From Antedon mediterranea (taxonomy: Eukaryota; Echinodermata; Crinoidea; Comatulida; Antedonidae): DNA of 64,000 bases. This document shows, piece after piece, positions 8,739 through 64,000 of the stretch. Each line of letters opens with the position of its first letter. Positions within the stretch are counted from its first letter, which is position 1. Under the pieces are notes generated by a model. It saw only the letters and a list, made by a program, of their open reading frames with translations, did no database searches and was not told the origin of the DNA. The DNA lies in the NCBI RefSeq assembly GCF_964355755.1, contig NC_092672.1:1550001-1614000 (forward strand). The letters are read 5' to 3'. Position numbers and translations under genes: made by a program.

Positions 8739-8898
8739 CTGTGTCTACACTGTCCCAACTAGTTTAACAAAAAAAGTGTGATGTGCCCAAATATGGTAGT
8801 GATATGCCCGAATATCGTAGTGATATGACATCGTCATGTCTATATAATATGGGCACATCATAATCATATTTAGTTTGATAGTATAGACAAAGCTTAAG
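8739..8898. mobile_element. MITE family A copy 4
   Basis: CTGTGTCTACACTGTCCCAA opens the copy and GTTTGATAGTATAGACAAAG closes it. The core GTGATGTGCCCAAATATGG is present. Confidence 0.8.
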
Positions 8899-16731: not shown

Positions 16732-28869
<12,138 letters not shown>

Positions 28870-44700: not shown

Positions 44701-47700
44701 AAACGTTATGATTCTTTAATTGTTTTTTACTAAAATTCTTGATATTAACTCCTGTATGTGATAGGTGGTGGTGTTTTTTTCCCATTATTATTTTAATGTC
44801 TATTGATGCAGTCTTGGAATATGAATAATATCTACTGTAAGGCGGCATCCTGTGATTGGCATAGCCACAAATAAAAATTATAATTTGATTTTGATTTAGT
44901 GGTTCTTCTGTTCTCACAAATGGGAACACTATAAAAAATGGTTATGCCATGGACCTAGATGTCTTAGAGGTCACTCAGAAGGTCGGCATTATGAGGAAGG
45001 CAGATGGCACACTTCACTTCTACTATAATGGTGTTGACCAGGGCGTGGCCTGCTCCAACGTCAATCCTAGTAAGTTTAGTAATATGTACTAAGTACTTAA
45101 ATAGTGTATTACACTTCATTTCTACTATAATGGTGTTGACCAGGGCGTGGCCTGCTCCAACGTCAATCCTAGTAAGTTTAGTAATACTGAGTACTTAAAA
45201 TAGTGTAATACACTTCACTTCTACTATAATGGTGTTGACCAGGGCGTGGTCTGCTCCACCGTCAGTCCTAGTGAGTACTTAAAATAGTTACATTTTCATG
45301 GGGCTTACTTTCAACCAATGCATTCTTATTATACAATATTATAAATAATAAAGTTGAATAATAAATTTTGTACATTTTTTCTTAGATGTATATGCTATTA
45401 TTGATTTGTATGGACAGTGTTCCCGTGTTTCTCTTGCGCATTCTGTCGTGGAAAGCAAAGCTTCAAACAATGGAAGTTCAGTGCAATTTAGTGAGTTCTT
45501 TCTTTCTTTTATTGATTAAGACAAAAAAAAACTGAGATTAAAAACAGGAATACAATTATGAATCATTTTAGTAAAACAAAAAGCAACATTGGTTGTTTGA
45601 AAGCTTTTAAAAGAATGAAGATTATACAAATGATTTACCATTCACTTCATAAGGTCTTTGACCTCCGATCACATTCTCTACACAATTTGTTTACAATGTT
45701 GTAATTTTTAGTTTTTAATGTTACCATTTTTTTCAGGAATGAAACATTTTTTTAGTGAATGTTGCGGTAAGAATATTACGATAAAGAATTTGGGAAGTAC
45801 AGCATGTCGCCAGAAAGGTTGTTTGGATTCAATTTTGTTTAGTTCTAAGCCGTTGAAAGTTGGTGAAACTTTTGAGGTATTTCTGAATTATTCTAAGATT
45901 CAATGTATTAGATGTACTGTAAACCTTAAGCTCTGTCTACACAATCAAGAAGAGTGTCATGTGCCCAAATATGGTAGTGATGCCCAATTATGGTAGTGAT
46001 ATGACATCATCATGTGCATATATGGGCACATCACATTTGATAGTGTAGACAGAGCAAAGTTATGAGAATATCTCATTGCAAAAATAGATTGCTTGTGTTG
46101 AAATTTAACCGTTTGTTAAGCTCTGTCCACACTATCAAATTTTGTGACCAAAAAAATGAGATGTGTCCATATATGCACATATGATGTCATATCACTGCCA
46201 TATTTGGGTACATCACACTTTTTGTCAAACGAGTTTGATAGTGTAGAGAGAGCTGTACTCAGTCAATTTCTCGTCCTTTTTCTACTAATCCTAATTCTTT
46301 TCCTAAGGTTGAGGTTGAAAGTGTTGATCAGAAGTGGTCAGGTTGTCTTGTTATTGGTTTAACATCATTTCTTCCTGAGACGCCGCCATCTCACATTTTA
46401 CCAAGCTTTGCAGTTGACATGAAGTCAAGTGTCACTTGGTTACTACAGGCAACAGATGTCAAAAGGAATGGAGTGGTTGTCAAGGAAAACTACACAGGAT
46501 CTGTCATGAGACTAGAGGTAAGAGAAATGAAGTCTGTTTAATTTTCTTTTCTGTCATCAAATCTAGACAGCTAAACAAAATTACAAATTAAATTGTTATT
46601 TATATATTTATTATTATTTATTTCATCTGGAAATCAACTGAAAATAAATTGTTATTTATGAGCTTCCAATGCAAGAAACATGCTTCAATAGCACAATAGC
46701 AAAGCAAAAATAATAACTGCTAAATTGTAGCTGTTTAATTTTCTTTCTGTCGTCAAAGAACAAATACAGTTTAACCAAATGGCAGCATTGCTATTGAAAA
46801 TAAACAGTAAATTGCTATTTTGTTTATCTGTTACTATATACAGTAGTTTTATATTGTTTACCTTTCTCTTGTAGGTTGGCAATACAATTGGTGTTCAGAG
46901 ACAAGCTGACAATAGTATGCATATTATTATTAATGGTGAAGATGCTGGTGTTGCTGCTACCAATATACCCAAGGTGACTGGTTCAAATTATTCTGTATTC
47001 ACCATTTTCTTTTAGCTAATTTTAGTAGAAGTATTCTCTTCTGTTGTGGTGATTTGAGGTTGATGTTATTAGATATTGAAACAGTAAACAGTGGTAGTGA
47101 ACAAAATGTAGTTACTGTACTGCAGTATGTAGTTACTGTACTGCAGTATGTAGTTACTGTACTGCAGTATGTAGTTACTGTACTGTAGTATGTAGTTACT
47201 GTACTGCAGTATGTAGTTACTGTACTGTAGTTACTGTACTGCAGTATGTAGTTACTGTACTGCAGTATGTAGTTACTGTACTGCAGTATGTAATTACTGT
47301 ACTGCAGTATGTAGTTACTGTACTGCAGTATGTAGTTACTGTACTGCAGTATGTAGTTACTGTACTGCAGTATGTAGTTACTGTACTGCAATATGTAGTT
47401 ACAGTACTGCAGTATGTATTTACTGTACTGCAGTATTTAGTTGCTGTACTGCAGTATGTAGTTACTATACTGCAGTAGGATAGTTTTGAAAACCCATAAC
47501 AAATATTGTTTTGTATGGTTTTAGGAGGATGTTTATGCAATAATTGACCTCTGTGGGTCAGTAGAAAGTGTAACTGCTGTTAGCAAAGAACCAGACATTG
47601 GCGAAATAATTAGAGCACCCTCAATCTCATCCTGTAGTGAAGCAAGCTCAGATAGAGAGGTATTTTATATTTAAATGTTACCATTTTTTGTCCAATATAT

Positions 47701-50700
47701 ATTTATTTATAAATTGTATTATTAAGAAGAATGATTTGGAAGAATCAAATAATTGTTGTGGATTATAAAATTCTTCATTTTTTTGTAGGAAGAATCTGTG
47801 GCCTCCCAAACCTACTACTCAACAGAATTCCATCAAAATCATGGTAAAAATATTAGTCTTTCATGTGGGAATGTTACGGCAAGACGGACTGGGAGTTACA
47901 ATCAAGGAATCACGATATCACGGCATCCTTTGGCACGGCAACAGAAGTTTGAGGTTGGTGAACCACTAGTTTCTCTATTAGGTCATTTTAGCATTTAGAA
48001 GGCTTACGGTGGAGCGCACGTTCACCAGAATCATTGCCATTCGGCATCATTCATTGTTAGCATAGCAACCTAGGGTTAAAGGCAAGCCTGTTCGCCAGAA
48101 ACATTGCCATCCGGCATCATTATTTCTTTTTTCTAATTTTCAAATTTCTAGGGCGAAATAAAATAATGAAAATAAAAATAATCACAGTTCATATAAATAA
48201 ATTGTTCTTTTTTTTATGTTAAGGTCAAGTTAGAAAGGCTCTGTTCTCGCTGGACATCTTCTATACAGATTGGAGTCATAGGTCAGTCACCTGAGAAGTT
48301 TATATTTCCTGTGTCTGGAACATCAATAAAAAAGAATGTGTGGATAATATCAGGTGACTCCTTATTCCATAACACAATAAAGGTAAATACAAGGATGATT
48401 TCTATAAACCCATGTGCTATAGCTAAACCCATGTGCTATAGCTAAAGCCATGTGCTATAGCTAAAGCCATGTGCTATAGCTAAAATAGCTAAACCCATGT
48501 GCTATAGCTAAACCCATGTGCTATAGCTAAACCCATGTGCTATAGCTAAAGCCATGTGCTATAGCTAAACCCATGTGCTATAGCTAAACCCATGTGCTAT
48601 AGCTAAACCCATGTGCTATAGCTAAACCCATGTGCTATAGCTTATAGTAGTCATAAGTGTACTATTCATTTTTTGCAATTTGTATTTGTAATAATTGTTT
48701 ATACCGAGTGACCTCTTCAGTCAAAGACTGGTCTTCCAGAGGGCCCAGTTATGATACAATGCAATTAACTAGAATACTATCTAACCTAGACTATACCATT
48801 GTTTCAATAGGTGTGAGATAATATATAGGTGTTAACAACCTACAGTAGACTTTGATCATTGTTAAAACATATATTACCACTTAATATGGGTGTCCCCTGA
48901 GTAGAGGTTCTACCATTAGTTAAAAGACTGTACTATCTAACATTAAACCTTGTTAGGTACAAGACAAGATAGGTCCTGATTTAAACAAGTACTATCTAAC
49001 ATTAAACCTTGTTAGGTACAAGACAAGATAGGTCCTGATTTAAACAAGTACTATCTAACATTAAACCTTGTTAGGTACAAGACAAGATAGGTCCTGATTT
49101 AAACAAGTACTATCTAACATTAAACCTTGTTAGGTACAAGACAAGATAGGTCCTGATTTAAACAAGTACTATCTAACATTAAACCTTGTTAGGTACAAGA
49201 CAAGATAGGTCCTGATTTAAACAAGTACTATCTAACATTAAACCTTGTTAGGTACAAGACAAGATAGGTCCTGATTTAAACAAGTACTATCTAACATTAA
49301 ACCTTGTTAGGTACAAGACAAGATAGGTCCTGATTTAAACAAGTACTATCTAACATTAAACCTTGTTAGGTACAAGACAAGATAGGTCCTGATTTAAACA
49401 AGCTACAGACAGGCTGTACAGTGGGCATTCTGATAGATGACAAAAGTTGTCTTCACCTGTTGGTAAATGGAATAGACCATGGCATTGTGGCAGAAGATAT
49501 TCCACATCACTGTCATGCGGTCGTTGACCTTTACGGACAGTGTGAACAAGTGAGTTTTAGATTATTTGTTGATAAATAAATATAATTTACTGTGAATTTT
49601 GAAGAAAACAATTTTTTAGTTTGAAGTCTAATAACCCAAATATTATTTGTAGGTTTCGATAATTGGAGGTGATCTTGCAAGTGGTGGAATACCTGAGGAA
49701 AGAGAGAAAGCTGATTTTGAAAATGGTTAGTTTGTTTATCATTATTATTTATACAAAACAAAACAAGACAAGAAAATATTATTAGTTGGGAAAGATATTA
49801 AAATCTCTAATATAATTTTGACTTAGGTTTAGTTATCTTCAGTAATTTTGGTCCATAATTAGAAACATCATTTTCTTTGGATTTAAAAGCCATTTTGTTT
49901 TATTTGTAGGTTTGAAAGAGAATTGTCGTCTACCGTCTGAGTTGAGTTTGACACCTCGGTGCGAATATCAGGAAATGTGTCGGAGGTTTCAAACCATGCT
50001 AGCCCTACCACGTACGTTTATGTCAAACATTTAATTTTTTTTTCTGTATTTAAAAATAAATTAAAACATTCAATATCTACATATGGGATCCTCTTCTATG
50101 TCATAGATCTGGGGGTCAAAAACAATAAAAAAAAAAAACAATTTTCAAAATTATTTCTGTTCAACAAATTTTTTCAGGTGGATATTTTGAAGTTAATCCT
50201 AAATACAATAAATGTTATTGTGATTCTTGCTACAAACACCGAGGCGATGAAGCATACAATTCGCATGGAGAACCACCAAAGGAATACGCACGACCTTTAG
50301 GATGGTGTAAATTTGCTCTCAGGTAAGTTACAAAAACAATTATTGATTGTTGCAAATAGCCATCATGCGACCTGTGGCTTACTCAAACCTTAAGCATGGT
50401 TCCCACTAATCATGTAACATAACACAACCTACAACAACGTAAGAAAATGCTCTTCCAATAATTGTGTTTGCCAGAGTAAAATCAAACCTGCGATGTTTGC
50501 AGCACTGTTGCATCATCGGTTCCCACTTGTGATTACGCAATACAGCACTTTGCGTCGATACGTCGCTGCGTTGTGTTCTAGTGGGAACCTCTAGACCATC
50601 TTGATATTACTGTTTTTTTTTCTTCACTTAAGGCTGCCACCTAGAGTTGACACACAGCGTTTATTTGAGAACTGTCACGTCGCATATCATACAACTGATA

Positions 50701-56009: not shown

Positions 56010-59000
56010 ATGGGTAATTCTGATGCTAATCGTTCTGATTCACCTGTAAAACCAGATGTTATGGATTCCACAGAGCCATCGGAAACAGCAGCTTGCACAC
56101 TCAAAAAACCTCCTTTGGGTAGGCCAATATTAATACCAATATATTTTTATTTTCACTAATCACATTTATTTGTTATCTCAACTGTTCTGATCGTGGCAGA
56201 TGCATAGGTCTCACAATTGCAAAAACCCCAGACAGCTGACCACCACCTCACCTTTTTTAATTCAGTCAGTACAGATAAAAATTCAGTGACAAATATCTCT
56301 TGTAGTTATATTTATACTTCATGGTTATTTAGATTTTTACTGTTACACATTACAGTATCATAAAAATAAGATCAATAATATGCCAATGGTGATGATAACA
56401 GGTCATCAGAGAATAATTTCGCCAGTGTAGCATAGCAAAAAGCTATACAAAACAACCTTTTTGCTACAGATTTTTAAAATTGTGTAGCAAAAAATCAATA
56501 CAAAACTATGTTTCTAGACTCAAAAATCAGTTTGATTAGCAATAATGCTAAACAAAAATTTTCCCCTGGTCATCTCTGAAAACTATACCAGACCTTGATT
56601 TATAAATATAAGAGGAGAGCTCCTAATGGCTCTCCTCAATATGTTGAGGAGAGCCATTATTTTGATTAAGTATTCGAGGCACAGGCCCACCATGGTTGGG
56701 CCTGTGGCGAGCCGAATTTTGATAAATGACACCTCTAGATGGCCGGAAATGGTATTCTCGCACGTAAAATTCATCGTAGGTCATTGTTCTCTGAACGTAG
56801 TCTACGATGTATTGTTATGATAATTATCTACGCGTCGATCGTAGGGTGGTTCGTAGGGTTAGTAAACACCATTGTCATCGCCTTTACTTTAGAAGCATGG
56901 ACAATGCAAACAAACAATGTATTGTTTGCTAATTAAAATCCTATCTAAAGATAGTAGACGTCAATTTTTGTAGCCACCCTAGCTAGGCCTACGCATCGGT
57001 TATCCTAATTTGGACGGAAATCCGCCGCCGACGAGACGACATCGGGTCCGTGGACCTCTCAGCTCACGCAGAGAGAGAGAGTCGAGGCTATCTATCTACT
57101 AGTCTAGTTTCGGCGGCCTACACTATACATTATTTAATCCTACCTTGGGTTAGCGAATTAAAAAAACGACGACACCTAGGCTAGGACACCAACAAAATAT
57201 ATGCAAAATAAATATATATTCCATATTAATTACTATAAGATTTAACATAAAGGCGACATGTGTATAATAAGAAAAGGCCCGACCAGAATTTGGAGGGGAA
57301 AACATGTGAGCAGTTATTAATATTAAGATCAGAGAGAGTGTTTCATGTCATGTGACACAAAATCCAGGTACACGATCTTAATTACTGTTTATCGTCGTCG
57401 GCAGCCACCCTCACATACTGAGTTAAAAAAAAAACATGTGAGATGTTGCGGTAAAGCAGAGAGTATCGCGTTTCATGCCATGTGACCAAAAAAACTAGGT
57501 CTGTATAATTACGGTCTTCTGACGGCAGTCTTTTTGAGCTACCGATTGAACGTTCTGATACTATATTTAGAATGAATTGTTTACGATATTTTTCTCGCAA
57601 CATCAAAGATCATAGGCGCGCCTAGCCTATCGGGGGTAGCCATAACAAAGATCGTTTGCGCGACTATATATAGACTGTGTGTTGTATTCGGGGTTAATAT
57701 TCTTATCATTATATATATTTTTATGACGCACTGTAACAGGTTGGGGAGCGCTATTTTAGGCGCTCCTTTGATCGTTTTCAGGAGCGCCAAGGAGCGTCAG
57801 CGCCATGGCGCTCCTTTTAAATCAAGGTCTGCTATACAGTAGGCCTATTACAAAAGAACATATTTTGCACAAATATTCATGAATTGTTGTGCACACAAAA
57901 TAAGATAATTTAAAGGAATGCATTATTGACATGTCTATTGAGCCAAACAAGCTAAACTTTCACAGGTCAGGGCTGGTCATAACATTTAATTCTTTAACTT
58001 TTTACGATCGAGGTTAAATAAACTCTGCTAAAAATTAAATCAAAATGAGTTTACACCTTATCATGTTTATTCCCAGATGGTATGACATGCTAAAGGGTAG
58101 CTTTGCATTTAAAATGTATATTGTTTAATACAAACCTTTTGATTGAAACAACTTTGATAATAATTTCACTTATTTAATGTCAGTGAATAGCAGAACAAGT
58201 ATCATAAAAAAATACTTTATAGTAATATGCTGTAGGACATTTTTGTAATGTTATAAGCTGCACCAAAAGTGACTGTCATGTCAATTTGAGGGTTGAAAGA
58301 ACATTCAGTTCTACACAGAAATTACTATGTTTATAAGAAATAGTTATCTGGCTAGCATTCATTGAAAATCACTAACTTTAATTATTAAAAAAAATGCTTT
58401 ATTGATTACATCGTTCGACTGTGTCCAGGAAGATCTTCAAGCTCACCAATTTTTGCTCAGTTTAACTGTTGTGTGTTAATACACTTTTAAAATTTACTTT
58501 CTAGAAAAGAATGAAGAGGTCAATCGGAGGTCAAATGTAGAGGGAGCTACTTCTGAAAAAGTAAAGGAAGAAACTGAAATGGAGGTTGATTTGAACTCTG
58601 AGGTCAACACGAAGCCAGAGGTCAATTGCAAGCCAGAGGTCAATTCAAAGCCTGCGGTCAAAGTTGAGACGAGAGATGAAGCCTCCGAACAAGGAGGGGA
58701 CCATTATGATAACTACCTGGAGGATGTACAGACAGATTCTGGACTTATAACAAAAGACATGCTAGAAGAAGAAAAGAAATTACACAATGAGACCAAGAAT
58801 GAAGAGAAAAAAAGACGAGAAGAGGTAAAAGAATAAACAAATGTTTTAACCATTAGATAAATAAATTCTGCCTGTTGAACTTTAACCTTATTCTTAATAA
58901 TGACTGCCTTGTTCTAAGAGTAATATGATTTGTTTGAGAGTCATTTACAAATTAACTTTTAACGTGCAAAAGAAAGTATATTAAAATATAGCTTCCAGTA

Positions 59001-60313
59001 ATAGATGAAATGCTGTCTTAAGCAAATAAGTTAAGAGTCTTACTAATGTTTTCCTGTTGATTATTATCAGGCTATGAGTGAATGGCAACAAGATGTGGAA
59101 GAACAACGATACAAGCGACTACAACATTTACTACAAAAAAGCAATATTTACTCAAAGTTTCTGTTAGCAAAGATGGAACAACAGCAAAAACAAGAACAAC
59201 TACGTCTACAAAAACAAGCAAAGAAAAAGGCACTTGAAACGCAAGCAAAGGTACTAAACGTTGATACATTTATAAAAGATACAGTCAACTGTCCCAATAC
59301 TGGACGCCTGTGACACTGTGTGACCGTCTAATATATCTAGTTTTCTGTAATGTCTGCTATTCAGTGGAGCTGTGACTTGGTGGTTATGATGCTTGGCTAC
59401 CAATCTAAGGGTCCTGGGTTCAAGTCCTGTCAGGGTTGTTTTCCTCATGACAATTTACAACTCCACTCCCAAAGACTTAATAGTAAGTCTTTGTTTATGT
59501 AGAGCATCTTGTTTGTTTTGTGAATGGGATTGCCACCTTTGAGAAGGATAGTGAATGAATTCACTTGTGGTAATCCTTGGCAATTGAGAATGAGAATAAA
59601 AAAAAAAAATAAAATAATTCCAAATGTTAAAAAGATGGTAAAAAAGAATTTGGGTACTTTTGGACATAAAAAGAAGTCTGGTTTGGGAACGTTTCTGGTT
59701 TTCAGAGAGTATTACTCAAAAGTAGTGTTTATTGCAATGTTTTTTATTCCATTTTTATTAATCATATTGTGTTATGTTTTTACAGTTTATTTTAATATGT
59801 CATACAGTTTTGCTGACACATCAGTTTTTCTAATTTAATCTTTTTTAGACTGCTACTGCTGCCACCACAGAAGTGTTGTCCCCAACTAGAAAATCCAGGA
59901 GGAAAGAAAAACAACAAACAGATTCTGCCAACAGCAGTCAATCTGAAACAGACAGTCCTAGTGCAAAGACAGAGACAACTCCTGTAAGAAAATCTAAAAG
60001 AGGTCAAAGGTCAACTGAACCTACTCAAGCAGAACAAGCTGAAAATCAAAAACGTAAGTACCTGTTTCACAGCACATTTTAGAATTTGTCTCTTAATTAA
60101 AATTGTATTAGATAAAATATACACCACCTATGTTCTTCATAGAAGGATAAGTACTAATATTAAACAACAAATTCATTCATTCATTTTTTAATGTGAAGAG
60201 AAATATTAATAGTATTATTTTTTTTTCTTTTTTTTTTTTGCTTTTCAGCGCCAAAAAGAGGTAGAAAGAGAAAGAATGAAAGTTATAATATATCACACTA
60301 CCTAGACAAGGAG
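56010..60313 (+). CDS. HELLS: HELLS/LSH SNF2-family chromatin remodeller, first five coding exons (continues beyond window)
   Basis: Exons 56010-56118, 58505-58824, 59071-59250, 59849-60053, 60249-60313 (879 nt, 293 codons, frame open). The ATG follows an acceptor-like TTCTTTAAAG ending at 56000. The N-terminus is acidic and low-complexity with a short KPEVN repeat. Residues about 145-195 carry the HELLS coiled-coil signature, [18 protein letters not shown] then [12 protein letters not shown], nearly identical to vertebrates. A basic Ser/Lys-rich linker (KSRRKEK, KSKRGQR) follows, then [19 protein letters not shown], matching the conserved ESYNIS motif before the ATPase. The two helicase lobes are outside the window. 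The protein is a nuclear ATP-dependent remodeller (with CDCA7 in vertebrates) needed for DNA methylation and silencing of repeats. The linker is longer than in vertebrates. Confidence 0.92.
56589..57831. mobile_element. 1.24-kb DNA element, hAT-like, with subterminal hairpins
   Basis: CAGACCTTGATTTA at the left and its exact complement at the right are flanked by the direct repeat CTATAC (56583-56588, 57832-57837). CAG...CTG ends fit hAT elements, though hAT target copies are usually 8 bp. Perfect hairpins lie inside both ends: AATGGCTCTCCTCAA with its complement (56623-56656) and CACAGGCCCA at the left, GGAGCGCC pairs at the right. No transposase frame. It sits in HELLS intron 1. Confidence 0.75.
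57838..58504. other. HELLS intron 1, nothing further recognised
   Basis: AT-rich intron, ending in the acceptor TTTACTTTCTAG. Confidence 0.4.
59363..59475 (+). mobile_element. tRNA-derived SINE in HELLS intron 3
   Basis: ACTTGGTGGTTATGATGCTT (A box), an anticodon-arm-like stretch, and CCTGGGTTCAAGTCCTG (B box) are spaced as in a tRNA. The stems are too imperfect for a real tRNA. A unique body follows (CATGACAATTTACAACTCC). Confidence 0.7.
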
Positions 60314-63300
60314 GTAAGCATGCAAGATATAATATCAGACTACCTAGACAAGGAGGTAAGCATGCAAGTTATAATATATCAGACTACCTAGACAAGGAGG
60401 TAAGCATGCAAGTTATAATATATCAGACTACCTAGACAAGGAGGTAAGCATGCAAGTTATAATATATCAGACTACCTAGACAAGGAGGTAAGCATGCAAG
60501 TTATAATATATCAGACTACCTAGACAAGGAGGTAAGCATACAAGTTATAATATATCAGACTACCTAGACAAGGAGGTAAGCATGCAAGTTATAATATATC
60601 AGACTACCTAGACAAGGAGGTAAACATGCAAGTTATAATATATCAGACTACCTAGACAAGGAGGTAAGCATGCAAGTTATAATATATCAGACTACCTAGA
60701 CAAGGAGGTAAGCATGCAAGTTATAATATATCAGACTACCTAGACAAGGAGGTAAGCATGCAAGTTATAATATATCAGACTACCTAGACAAGGAGGTAAG
60801 CATGCAAGTTATAATATATCAGACTACCTAGACAAGGAGGTAAGCATACAAGTTATAATATATCAGACTACCTAGACAAGGAGGTAAGCATGCAAGATAT
60901 AATATATCAGACTACCTAGACAAGGAGGTAAGCATACAAGTTATAATATATCAGACTACCTAGACAAGGAGGTAAGCATGTAAGTTATAATATATCAGAC
61001 TACCTAGACAAGGAGGTAAGCATGTAAGTTATAATATATCAGACTACCTAGACAAGGAGGTAAACATGCAAGTTATAATATATCAGACTACCTGGACAAG
61101 TAGGTAAGCATGCAAGTTATAATATATCAGACTACCTAGACAAGGAGGTAAGCATGCAAGTTATAATATATCAGACTACCTAGACAAGGAGGTAAGCATG
61201 CAAGTTATAATATATCAGACTACCTAGACAAGGAGGTAAGCATGCAAGTTATAATATATCAGACTACCTAGACAAGGAGGTAAGCATGCAAGTTATAATA
61301 TATCAGACTACCTGGACAAGGAGGTAAGCATGCAAGTTATAATATATCAGACTACCTAGACAAGGAGGTAATAAGCATGTAAGTTATAATATATCAGACT
61401 ACCTAGACAAGGAGGTAATAAGCATGCAAGTTATAATATATCAGACTACCTAGACAAGGAGGTAAGCATGCAAGTTATAATATATCAGACTACCTGGACA
61501 AGGAGGTAAGCATGCAAGTTATAATATATCAGACTACCTAGACAAGGAGGTAAACATGCAAGTTATAATATATCAGACTACCTAGACAAGGAGGTAAACA
61601 TGCAAGTTATAATATATCAGACTACCTAGACAAGGAGGTAAGCATGCAAGTTATAATATATCAGACTACCTAGACAAGGAGGTAAGCATGCAAGTTATAA
61701 TATATCAGACTACCTGGACAAGTAGGTAAGCATGCAAGTTATAATATATCAGACTACCTAGACAAGGAGGTAAGCATGCAAGTTATAATATATCAGACTA
61801 CCTAGACAAGGAGGTAAGCATGCAAGTTATAATATATCAGACTACCTGGACAAGGAGGTAAGCATGCAAGTTATAATATATCAGACTACCTAGACAAGGA
61901 GGTAAGCATGCAAGTTATAATATATCAGACTACCTGGACAAGGAGGTAAGCATGCAAGTTATAATATATCAGACTACCTAGACAAGGAGGTAATAAGCAT
62001 GTAAGTTATAATATATCAGACTACCTAGACAAGGAGGTAAGCATGCAAGTTATAATATATCAGACTACCTAGACAAGGAGGTAATAAGCATGTAAGTTAT
62101 AATATATCAGACTACCTAGACAAGGAGGTAAGCATGCAAGTTATAATATATCAGACTACCTAGACAAGGAGGTAATAAGCATGCAAGTTATAATATATCA
62201 GACTACCTAGACAAGGAGGTAAGCATGCAAGTTATAATATATCAGACTACCTAGACAAGGAGGTAAGCATGCAAGTTATAATATATCAGACTACCTAGAC
62301 AAGGAGGTAAGCATGCAAGTTATAATATATCAGACTACCTAGACAAGGAGGTAAACATGCAAGTTATAATATATCAGACTACCTAGACAAGGAGGTAAGC
62401 ATGCAAGTTATAATATATCAGACTACCTGGACAAGGAGATAAGCATGCAAGTTATAATATATCAGACTACCTAGACAAGGAGGTAAGCATGCAAGTTATA
62501 ATATATCAGACTACCTAGACAAGGAGGTAAGCATGCAAGTTATAATATATCAGACTACCTAGACAAGGAGGTAAGCATGTAAGTTATAATATATCAGACT
62601 ACCTAGACAAGGAGGTAAGCATGTAAGTTATAATATATCAGACTACCTAGACAAGGAGGTAAACATGCAAGTTATAATATATCAGACTACCTGGACAAGT
62701 AGGTAAGCATGCAAGTTATAATATATCAGACTACCTAGACAAGGAGGTAAGCATGCAAGTTATAATATATCAGACTACCTAGACAAGGAGGTAAGCATGC
62801 AAGTTATAATATATCAGACTACCTAGACAAGGAGGTAAGCATGCAAGTTATAATATATCAGACTACCTAGACAAGGAGGTAAGCATGCAAGTTATAATAT
62901 ATCAGACTACCTGGACAAGGAGGTAAGCATGCAAGTTATAATATATCAGACTACCTAGACAAGGAGGTAATAAGCATGTAAGTTATAATATATCAGACTA
63001 CCTAGACAAGGAGGTAATAAGCATGCAAGTTATAATATATCAGACTACCTAGACAAGGAGGTAAGCATGCAAGTTATAATATATCAGACTACCTGGACAA
63101 GGAGGTAAGCATGCAAGTTATAATATATCAGACTACCTAGACAAGGAGGTAAACATGCAAGTTATAATATATCAGACTACCTAGACAAGGAGGTAAACAT
63201 GCAAGTTATAATATATCAGACTACCTAGACAAGGAGGTAAGCATGCAAGTTATAATATATCAGACTACCTAGACAAGGAGGTAAGCATGCAAGTTATAAT

Positions 63301-64000
63301 ATATCAGACTACCTGGACAAGTAGGTAAGCATGCAAGTTATAATATATCAGACTACCTAGACAAGGAGGTAAGCATGCAAGTTATAATATATCAGACTAC
63401 CTAGACAAGGAGGTAAGCATGCAAGTTATAATATATCAGACTACCTGGACAAGGAGGTAAGCATGCAAGTTATAATATATCAGACTACCTAGACAAGGAG
63501 GTAAGCATGCAAGTTATAATATATCAGACTACCTGGACAAGGAGGTAAGCATGCAAGTTATAATATATCAGACTACCTAGACAAGGAGGTAATAAGCATG
63601 TAAGTTATAATATATCAGACTACCTAGACAAGGAGGTAAGCATGCAAGTTATAATATATCAGACTACCTAGACAAGGAGGTAATAAGCATGTAAGTTATA
63701 ATATATCAGACTACCTAGACAAGGAGGTAAGCATGCAAGTTATAATATATCAGACTACCTAGACAAGGAGGTAATAAGCATGCAAGTTATAATATATCAG
63801 ACTACCTAGACAAGGAGGTAAGCATGCAAGTTATAATATATCAGACTACCTAGACAAGGAGGTAAGCATGCAAGTTATAATATATCAGACTACCTAGACA
63901 AGGAGGTAAGCATGCAAGTTATAATATATCAGACTACCTAGACAAGGAGGTAAACATGCAAGTTATAATATATCAGACTACCTAGACAAGGAGGTAAGCA
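60281..64000 (+). repeat. 44-bp minisatellite built from the HELLS exon 5 3' edge and donor, about 84 units, running off the window
   Basis: The unit is 33 exonic bases (AGTTATAATATATCA.ACTACC then TAGACAAGGAG) plus 11 intronic bases GTAAGCATGCA, donor GAG|GTAAGC included. The first copy is the real exon end; the array differs from it by C to G (CACTAC to GACTAC). Variants: +3 (GGTAATAAGC), AAACATGC, GCATACAAG, CTGGACAAG and a donor-damaging AAGTAGG. The same variant order recurs 1599 bp apart (for example 61101/62700 and 61723/63322). Confidence 0.97.

Follow-up and report, generated by a model that had tools for sequence, protein, structure and literature searches.

The end of the window (the whole 64-kb stretch of DNA analysed, G000:C3:1550001-1614000) and the DNA beyond its edge contain a HELLS gene. 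We joined 17 exons to give a 951-aa protein, with approximate N-terminal exon boundaries and leaving out the initial coding exon at around 56 kb. This protein matches human LSH/HELLS (PDB 9z04) with an E value of 2e-285, and it contains SNF2 and helicase C domains (Pfam). The features of the gene that lie in the window are as follows (window positions).

58600-58661, + strand: in-frame coding repeat of 18 bp, 3.4 copies, inside HELLS exon 2 (Tandem Repeats Finder, TRF)
59071-59250, + strand: HELLS exon 3 (junction analysis, LSH match)
59849-60053, + strand: HELLS exon 4 (junction analysis, LSH match)
60249-60313, + strand: HELLS coding exon 5, in the numbering of an earlier note on this DNA; the repeat unit takes its exonic part from the last 33-34 nt of this exon (ORF and junction analysis, human LSH match)
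60272-64000, + strand, continuing to C3:1614445: 44-bp minisatellite of exon edge and 5′ splice site, with 84 of its copies inside the window (TRF, flanking DNA)
60314-60319, + strand: authentic 5′ splice site, donor 1, GAG/GTAAGC (frame analysis and homology)
60356-60361, + strand: donor 2, 42 nt downstream of donor 1, in frame
60937-64000, + strand: internal duplication of a 36-unit block, the two adjacent copies being identical (1643 bp exact at a lag of 1599)

The earlier note, made from the letters of the window, had described a HELLS 5′ splice site and its exon edge multiplied in tandem from the real exon end, in ~84 copies, with the array still open at the window edge. TRF, the exon junctions and the LSH match all bear this out. 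Within the window, TRF reports a single array at 60272-64000 with a period of 44, 84.1 copies and 96% match. The array overshoots the window by 445 bp and ends at C3:1614445 (window-equivalent 64445), past which the sequence is single-copy intron again and then HELLS exon 6. Over its full extent (60272-64445), TRF counts 94.2 copies, and splitting the array at its donors gives 94 donors. At 42 nt, the first repeat unit is 2 nt shorter than the 44-bp period. Exon 5, which ends at 60313, joins exon 6 at 64601 in frame, and the LSH match crosses this junction. A whole-genome DNA search with a two-unit query matched, among the matches listed, the HELLS locus only; a copy of the array elsewhere had been named as a possible sign of misassembly.

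The 44-bp unit consists of 33-34 bases of exon edge and 10-11 bases of intron. Its length had been given correctly, but the split into 33 exon and 11 intron bases is ambiguous, since both breakpoints share the trinucleotide ATG. Exon 5 ends in GACAAGGAG and the intron starts with GTAAGCATG; the unit starts in the exon with GAATGAAAG and the last unit ends in the intron with GCATGTTTT, and hence ATG is common to the two breakpoints. Outward of the array, the first copy adjoins single-copy exon and the last copy single-copy intron. Two changes of wording follow from the complete array. The statement that nearly every unit keeps GAG/GTAAGC was too strong: this donor is exact in 60 of the 84 units in the window and in 66 of all 94, the remainder being GAG/GTAATA (11), GAG/GTAAAC (10), TAG/GTAAGC (4), GAG/ATAAGC (2) and AAG/GTAAGC (1), so that GT is present in 92 of 94. 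The C-to-G change described for all later units was found in every one: the exonic CACACT reads CAGACT in 93/93, which places a new AG 17 nt before each donor and indicates that a single changed copy founded the array.

We joined exon 6 to all 94 donors in turn. The frame stays open from donors 1 and 2 only, use of donor 2 adding 14 aa (VSMQDIISDYLDKE) without a stop, and donors 3-94 all lead to premature stops. A second array lies in intron 8 of the same gene (C3:1615653-1617058), where the repeat is at the other end of the intron. Its 36-bp unit, TAACTTTCTGATTCCATACTCCTCCCAG/GTCCCTGT, runs from the pyrimidine tract through the acceptor into exon 9, of which it takes in the first 8 nt, and the array holds 40 AG/GTC acceptors, the real one included. 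Only one of the 40, the last, leaves the frame open; the 39 upstream acceptors give premature stops. The LSH match runs across the junctions flanking the donor array and those flanking the acceptor array of intron 8. Thus, the choice that yields HELLS protein is the exon-proximal site at both ends, and we infer use of donor 1 from coding capacity and homology. Judged from its coding sequence, HELLS is predicted to be intact provided that the exon-proximal sites are used.

A third HELLS array, in the intron preceding the VLIFSQMTSM exon (C3:1619880-1620087), has a 57/58-bp unit of acceptor plus exon start and contains 4 acceptors. The same array is present with 8 acceptors in a partial HELLS duplicate 33 kb downstream (C3:1645001-1658000), which is ~90% identical, 5′-truncated and rearranged, and retains introns. 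The array is therefore older than the duplication, and its copy number has since drifted. The duplicate is likely a pseudogene. We had considered this second HELLS-like SNF2 match as a retrocopy, which would show splicing; as an intron-containing partial duplicate it was ruled out.

Arrays of this anatomy have been described in amphioxus as "mirages", tandem copies of intron/exon boundaries at 5′ and 3′ ends, in Adh3, the globins BflGb6 and BflGb9, troponin C and PGBD5 (PMC3087553, PMC3902484). Their copy number varies and their length is unstable, in Adh3 even somatically, and splicing is normal where tested (PMC3087553, PMC3902484). The HELLS donor array resembles them in being a minisatellite-like series of boundary copies with GT/AG signals: its head-to-tail copies adjoin the authentic exon 5 boundary, and its unit contains that boundary. 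It differs in scale, with 94 donors and 40 acceptors against the 3-6 repeat units of amphioxus BflGb6, and in that donor and acceptor arrays occur in one gene. The class is thus already known, and HELLS is extreme in its size and its paired donor and acceptor arrays. In the literature, we found the term "mirage" for cephalochordates only. The genome analysed here has 11 chromosomes of 22-41 Mb, a TTAGGG telomere and a GC content of 28-38% within the window. We take 11 chromosomes, ~33% GC and this telomere to be a poor fit to amphioxus, and the host presumably lies outside the cephalochordates, so the HELLS array may extend the mirage class to another lineage.

Two further systems are related. 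Variable tandem repeats straddle exon-intron boundaries in human segmentally duplicated genes (PMC2812944); those are recent paralogs with alternative transcripts and putative new introns, whereas HELLS is an ordinary gene in which a new intron is not seen. Tandem duplication across boundaries is also a model of intron gain (PMC4974935). The likeness is that the duplication crosses an intron-exon boundary; the difference is that HELLS exons 5 and 6 join in frame and the copies only lengthen an existing intron.

Similar arrays occur in other genes of the Antedon genome. One lies within the window.

45009-45276, + strand: donor mirage of NEURL4 (Neuralized-repeat), exon end plus 5′ splice site, 99-bp unit, 2.7 copies (TRF; neighbouring exons match Pfam Neuralized)

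Two other repeats were observed in this region. A 59-bp repeat at 48930-49402 has 8 copies that are 100% identical, and is very young or actively homogenised. A 21-bp array at 47106-47485 starts at a possible exon end, AACAAAAT/GTAGTT, and reaches to within ~40 nt of a likely acceptor; its unit may derive from a weak donor and 2 bases of exon.

Among 60 SNF2 and myosin exon matches screened at their edges, the only boundary duplications besides those of HELLS were a 112-bp donor array in a CHD-like gene and a two-copy acceptor duplication in a BTAF1-like gene, both genes being named from their exon translations. A pattern search for three close tandem donors listed arrays on C1, C3, C4 and C5. 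We read the 5′ flank of six of these donor arrays, and three begin at a coding exon: in DHX8 (C1:17776253; PDB match, E 1e-20), in TDP2 (C1:41208067; E 3e-29), where a 31-bp unit recurs at least 28 times by a manual count over the listed matches, and in an unnamed gene at C4:35201374. The other three were rejected as mirages, having no coding exon on the 5′ side. A 31-bp array at C1:40902567-40903660 carries more than 30 perfect copies of the donor consensus CAGGTAAGT, and its 5′ side is without a coding exon. We therefore count nine mirages, three in HELLS and one each in NEURL4, the CHD-like gene, the BTAF1-like gene, DHX8, TDP2 and the C4:35201374 gene. Nine in so small a sample suggest that mirages are common in the Antedon genome. 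The earlier note had also pointed out that HELLS is itself a silencer of repeats; with at least five other genes carrying like arrays, this link looks coincidental.

We considered how far the placement of the arrays could be due to chance. If arrays are placed at random, each in its own short intron, and placements that leave the coding sequence usable are counted, all three HELLS arrays would span a junction with a probability of 17%. With placement over all HELLS introns, the probability falls to ~1%, from which some junction preference in HELLS is possible; we do not claim one, since this estimate is post hoc and small. Genome-wide, we obtained 246 donor-containing matches and 126 for a reversed control motif, figures that represent overlapping windows over a limited number of arrays and a search in which one further donor variant was also used. 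Distinct arrays of the control motif are similarly numerous and the windows overlap; hence we do not claim enrichment of donor arrays. That control-motif arrays are as common as donor arrays fits a genome rich in minisatellites of every kind; TRF gives 58 rows in the 64-kb window.

Other repetition was seen in passing. A 21-bp repeat (GTGATATGCCCAAATATGGTA) recurs within an inverted-repeat element ending in TAGTGTAGACAGAG (2081-2195, 8778-8827, 17155-17223, 27271-27341 and others), and this element is a widespread MITE-like family with an internal minisatellite. On C3, between 19.6 and 25.1 Mb, ~22 exons, most of them minus-strand, match positions 342-408 of the myosin head profile with near-identical scores, which suggests that one myosin heavy chain gene is present in dozens of copies.

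We favour the view that the HELLS donor array belongs to the mirage type and that this junction-spanning minisatellite is most likely neutral, and give this a probability of roughly 80%. The first tandem duplication would have crossed the boundary of exon 5 and its intron at the ATG microhomology, and the shared ATG may be the trace of a microhomology-mediated or slippage event. Growth would have followed by slippage or unequal exchange. The array would be tolerated because splicing still uses the exon-proximal donor or, for the acceptor arrays, the exon-proximal acceptor; if so, each extra copy falls inside the intron that is removed. Wholly exonic duplications, by comparison, would be removed by selection unless in frame, and the 18-bp duplication in exon 2, being a multiple of 3 in length, is tolerated. 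In a minisatellite-rich genome with frequent tandem duplication, mirages would be expected to be scattered over many genes, with HELLS as the extreme case.

The earlier note had proposed instead that the array could act on exon definition or as a decoy for U1. In this case, the ~90 extra donors would bind U1 snRNP and slow or tune the removal of intron 5, or donors 3-94 would produce transcripts targeted to NMD that set the level of HELLS. The number of donors retaining the exact motif, and the larger number retaining GT, are in keeping with such a role; the premature stops from donors 3-94 are what a poison isoform requires, and donor 2 would give an in-frame insertion of 14 aa. However, the donor 9-mer is not better conserved than the remainder of the unit: 5 of the ~11 independent changes that we counted manually over the array units fall within its 9 of 44 positions. 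Donors under selection should be less variable than the remaining positions, and thus we see no sign of donor conservation. Acceptors, too, carry like arrays, as do at least five other genes, which argues for a general mutational cause, and amphioxus mirages leave splicing undisturbed where tested (PMC3087553). We regard regulation through U1 or NMD as unlikely.

It is very unlikely that the array, or its size, is an artefact of assembly, with far fewer true copies or with the 36-unit block doubled by the assembler. The exact identity of the two adjacent blocks would be expected of such an error, and we read it as either a recent block duplication, that is, growth in blocks, or an assembly effect. 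Against an artefact, the single-copy flanks at the two ends belong to adjacent HELLS exons, outside the duplicated block many unit variants follow one another in a non-random order, and other mirages with independent sequence exist. A further conceivable role takes the donor and acceptor arrays together, as an expression brake that is tunable by copy number and is kept for its dozens of decoy sites, nearly all of them leading to premature stops; we consider this highly improbable.

The weakest proposal, which we find barely credible, is that each later unit is a latent microexon, ACTACCTAGACAAGGAG, entered through the acceptor that the C-to-G change created: a CAG did arise at the right distance from the donor in all 93 later units, but the change is simply common by descent from the first copied unit, the 17-nt exon would shift the frame and contains TAG, and the sequence upstream of the candidate acceptor TATATCAG is 45% pyrimidine, lower than at all 16 real HELLS acceptors (55-95%, mean 72%). 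On the sequence of the array, a role as U1 decoy or microexon source appears unsupported.

Read as a neutral mirage, HELLS offers a natural experiment on the choice of splice site. Of its 94 near-identical donors in a row, protein comes from the first (or second) only; intron 8 is the counterpart, with 40 near-identical acceptors of which the last alone gives protein. Whether the exon-proximal copy is chosen, and how that choice is made, would be directly readable from RNA. If mirages are common in Antedon, the class would be not a peculiarity of cephalochordates but a general by-product of high rates of tandem duplication, with a bearing on intron lengthening, intron gain and gene prediction.
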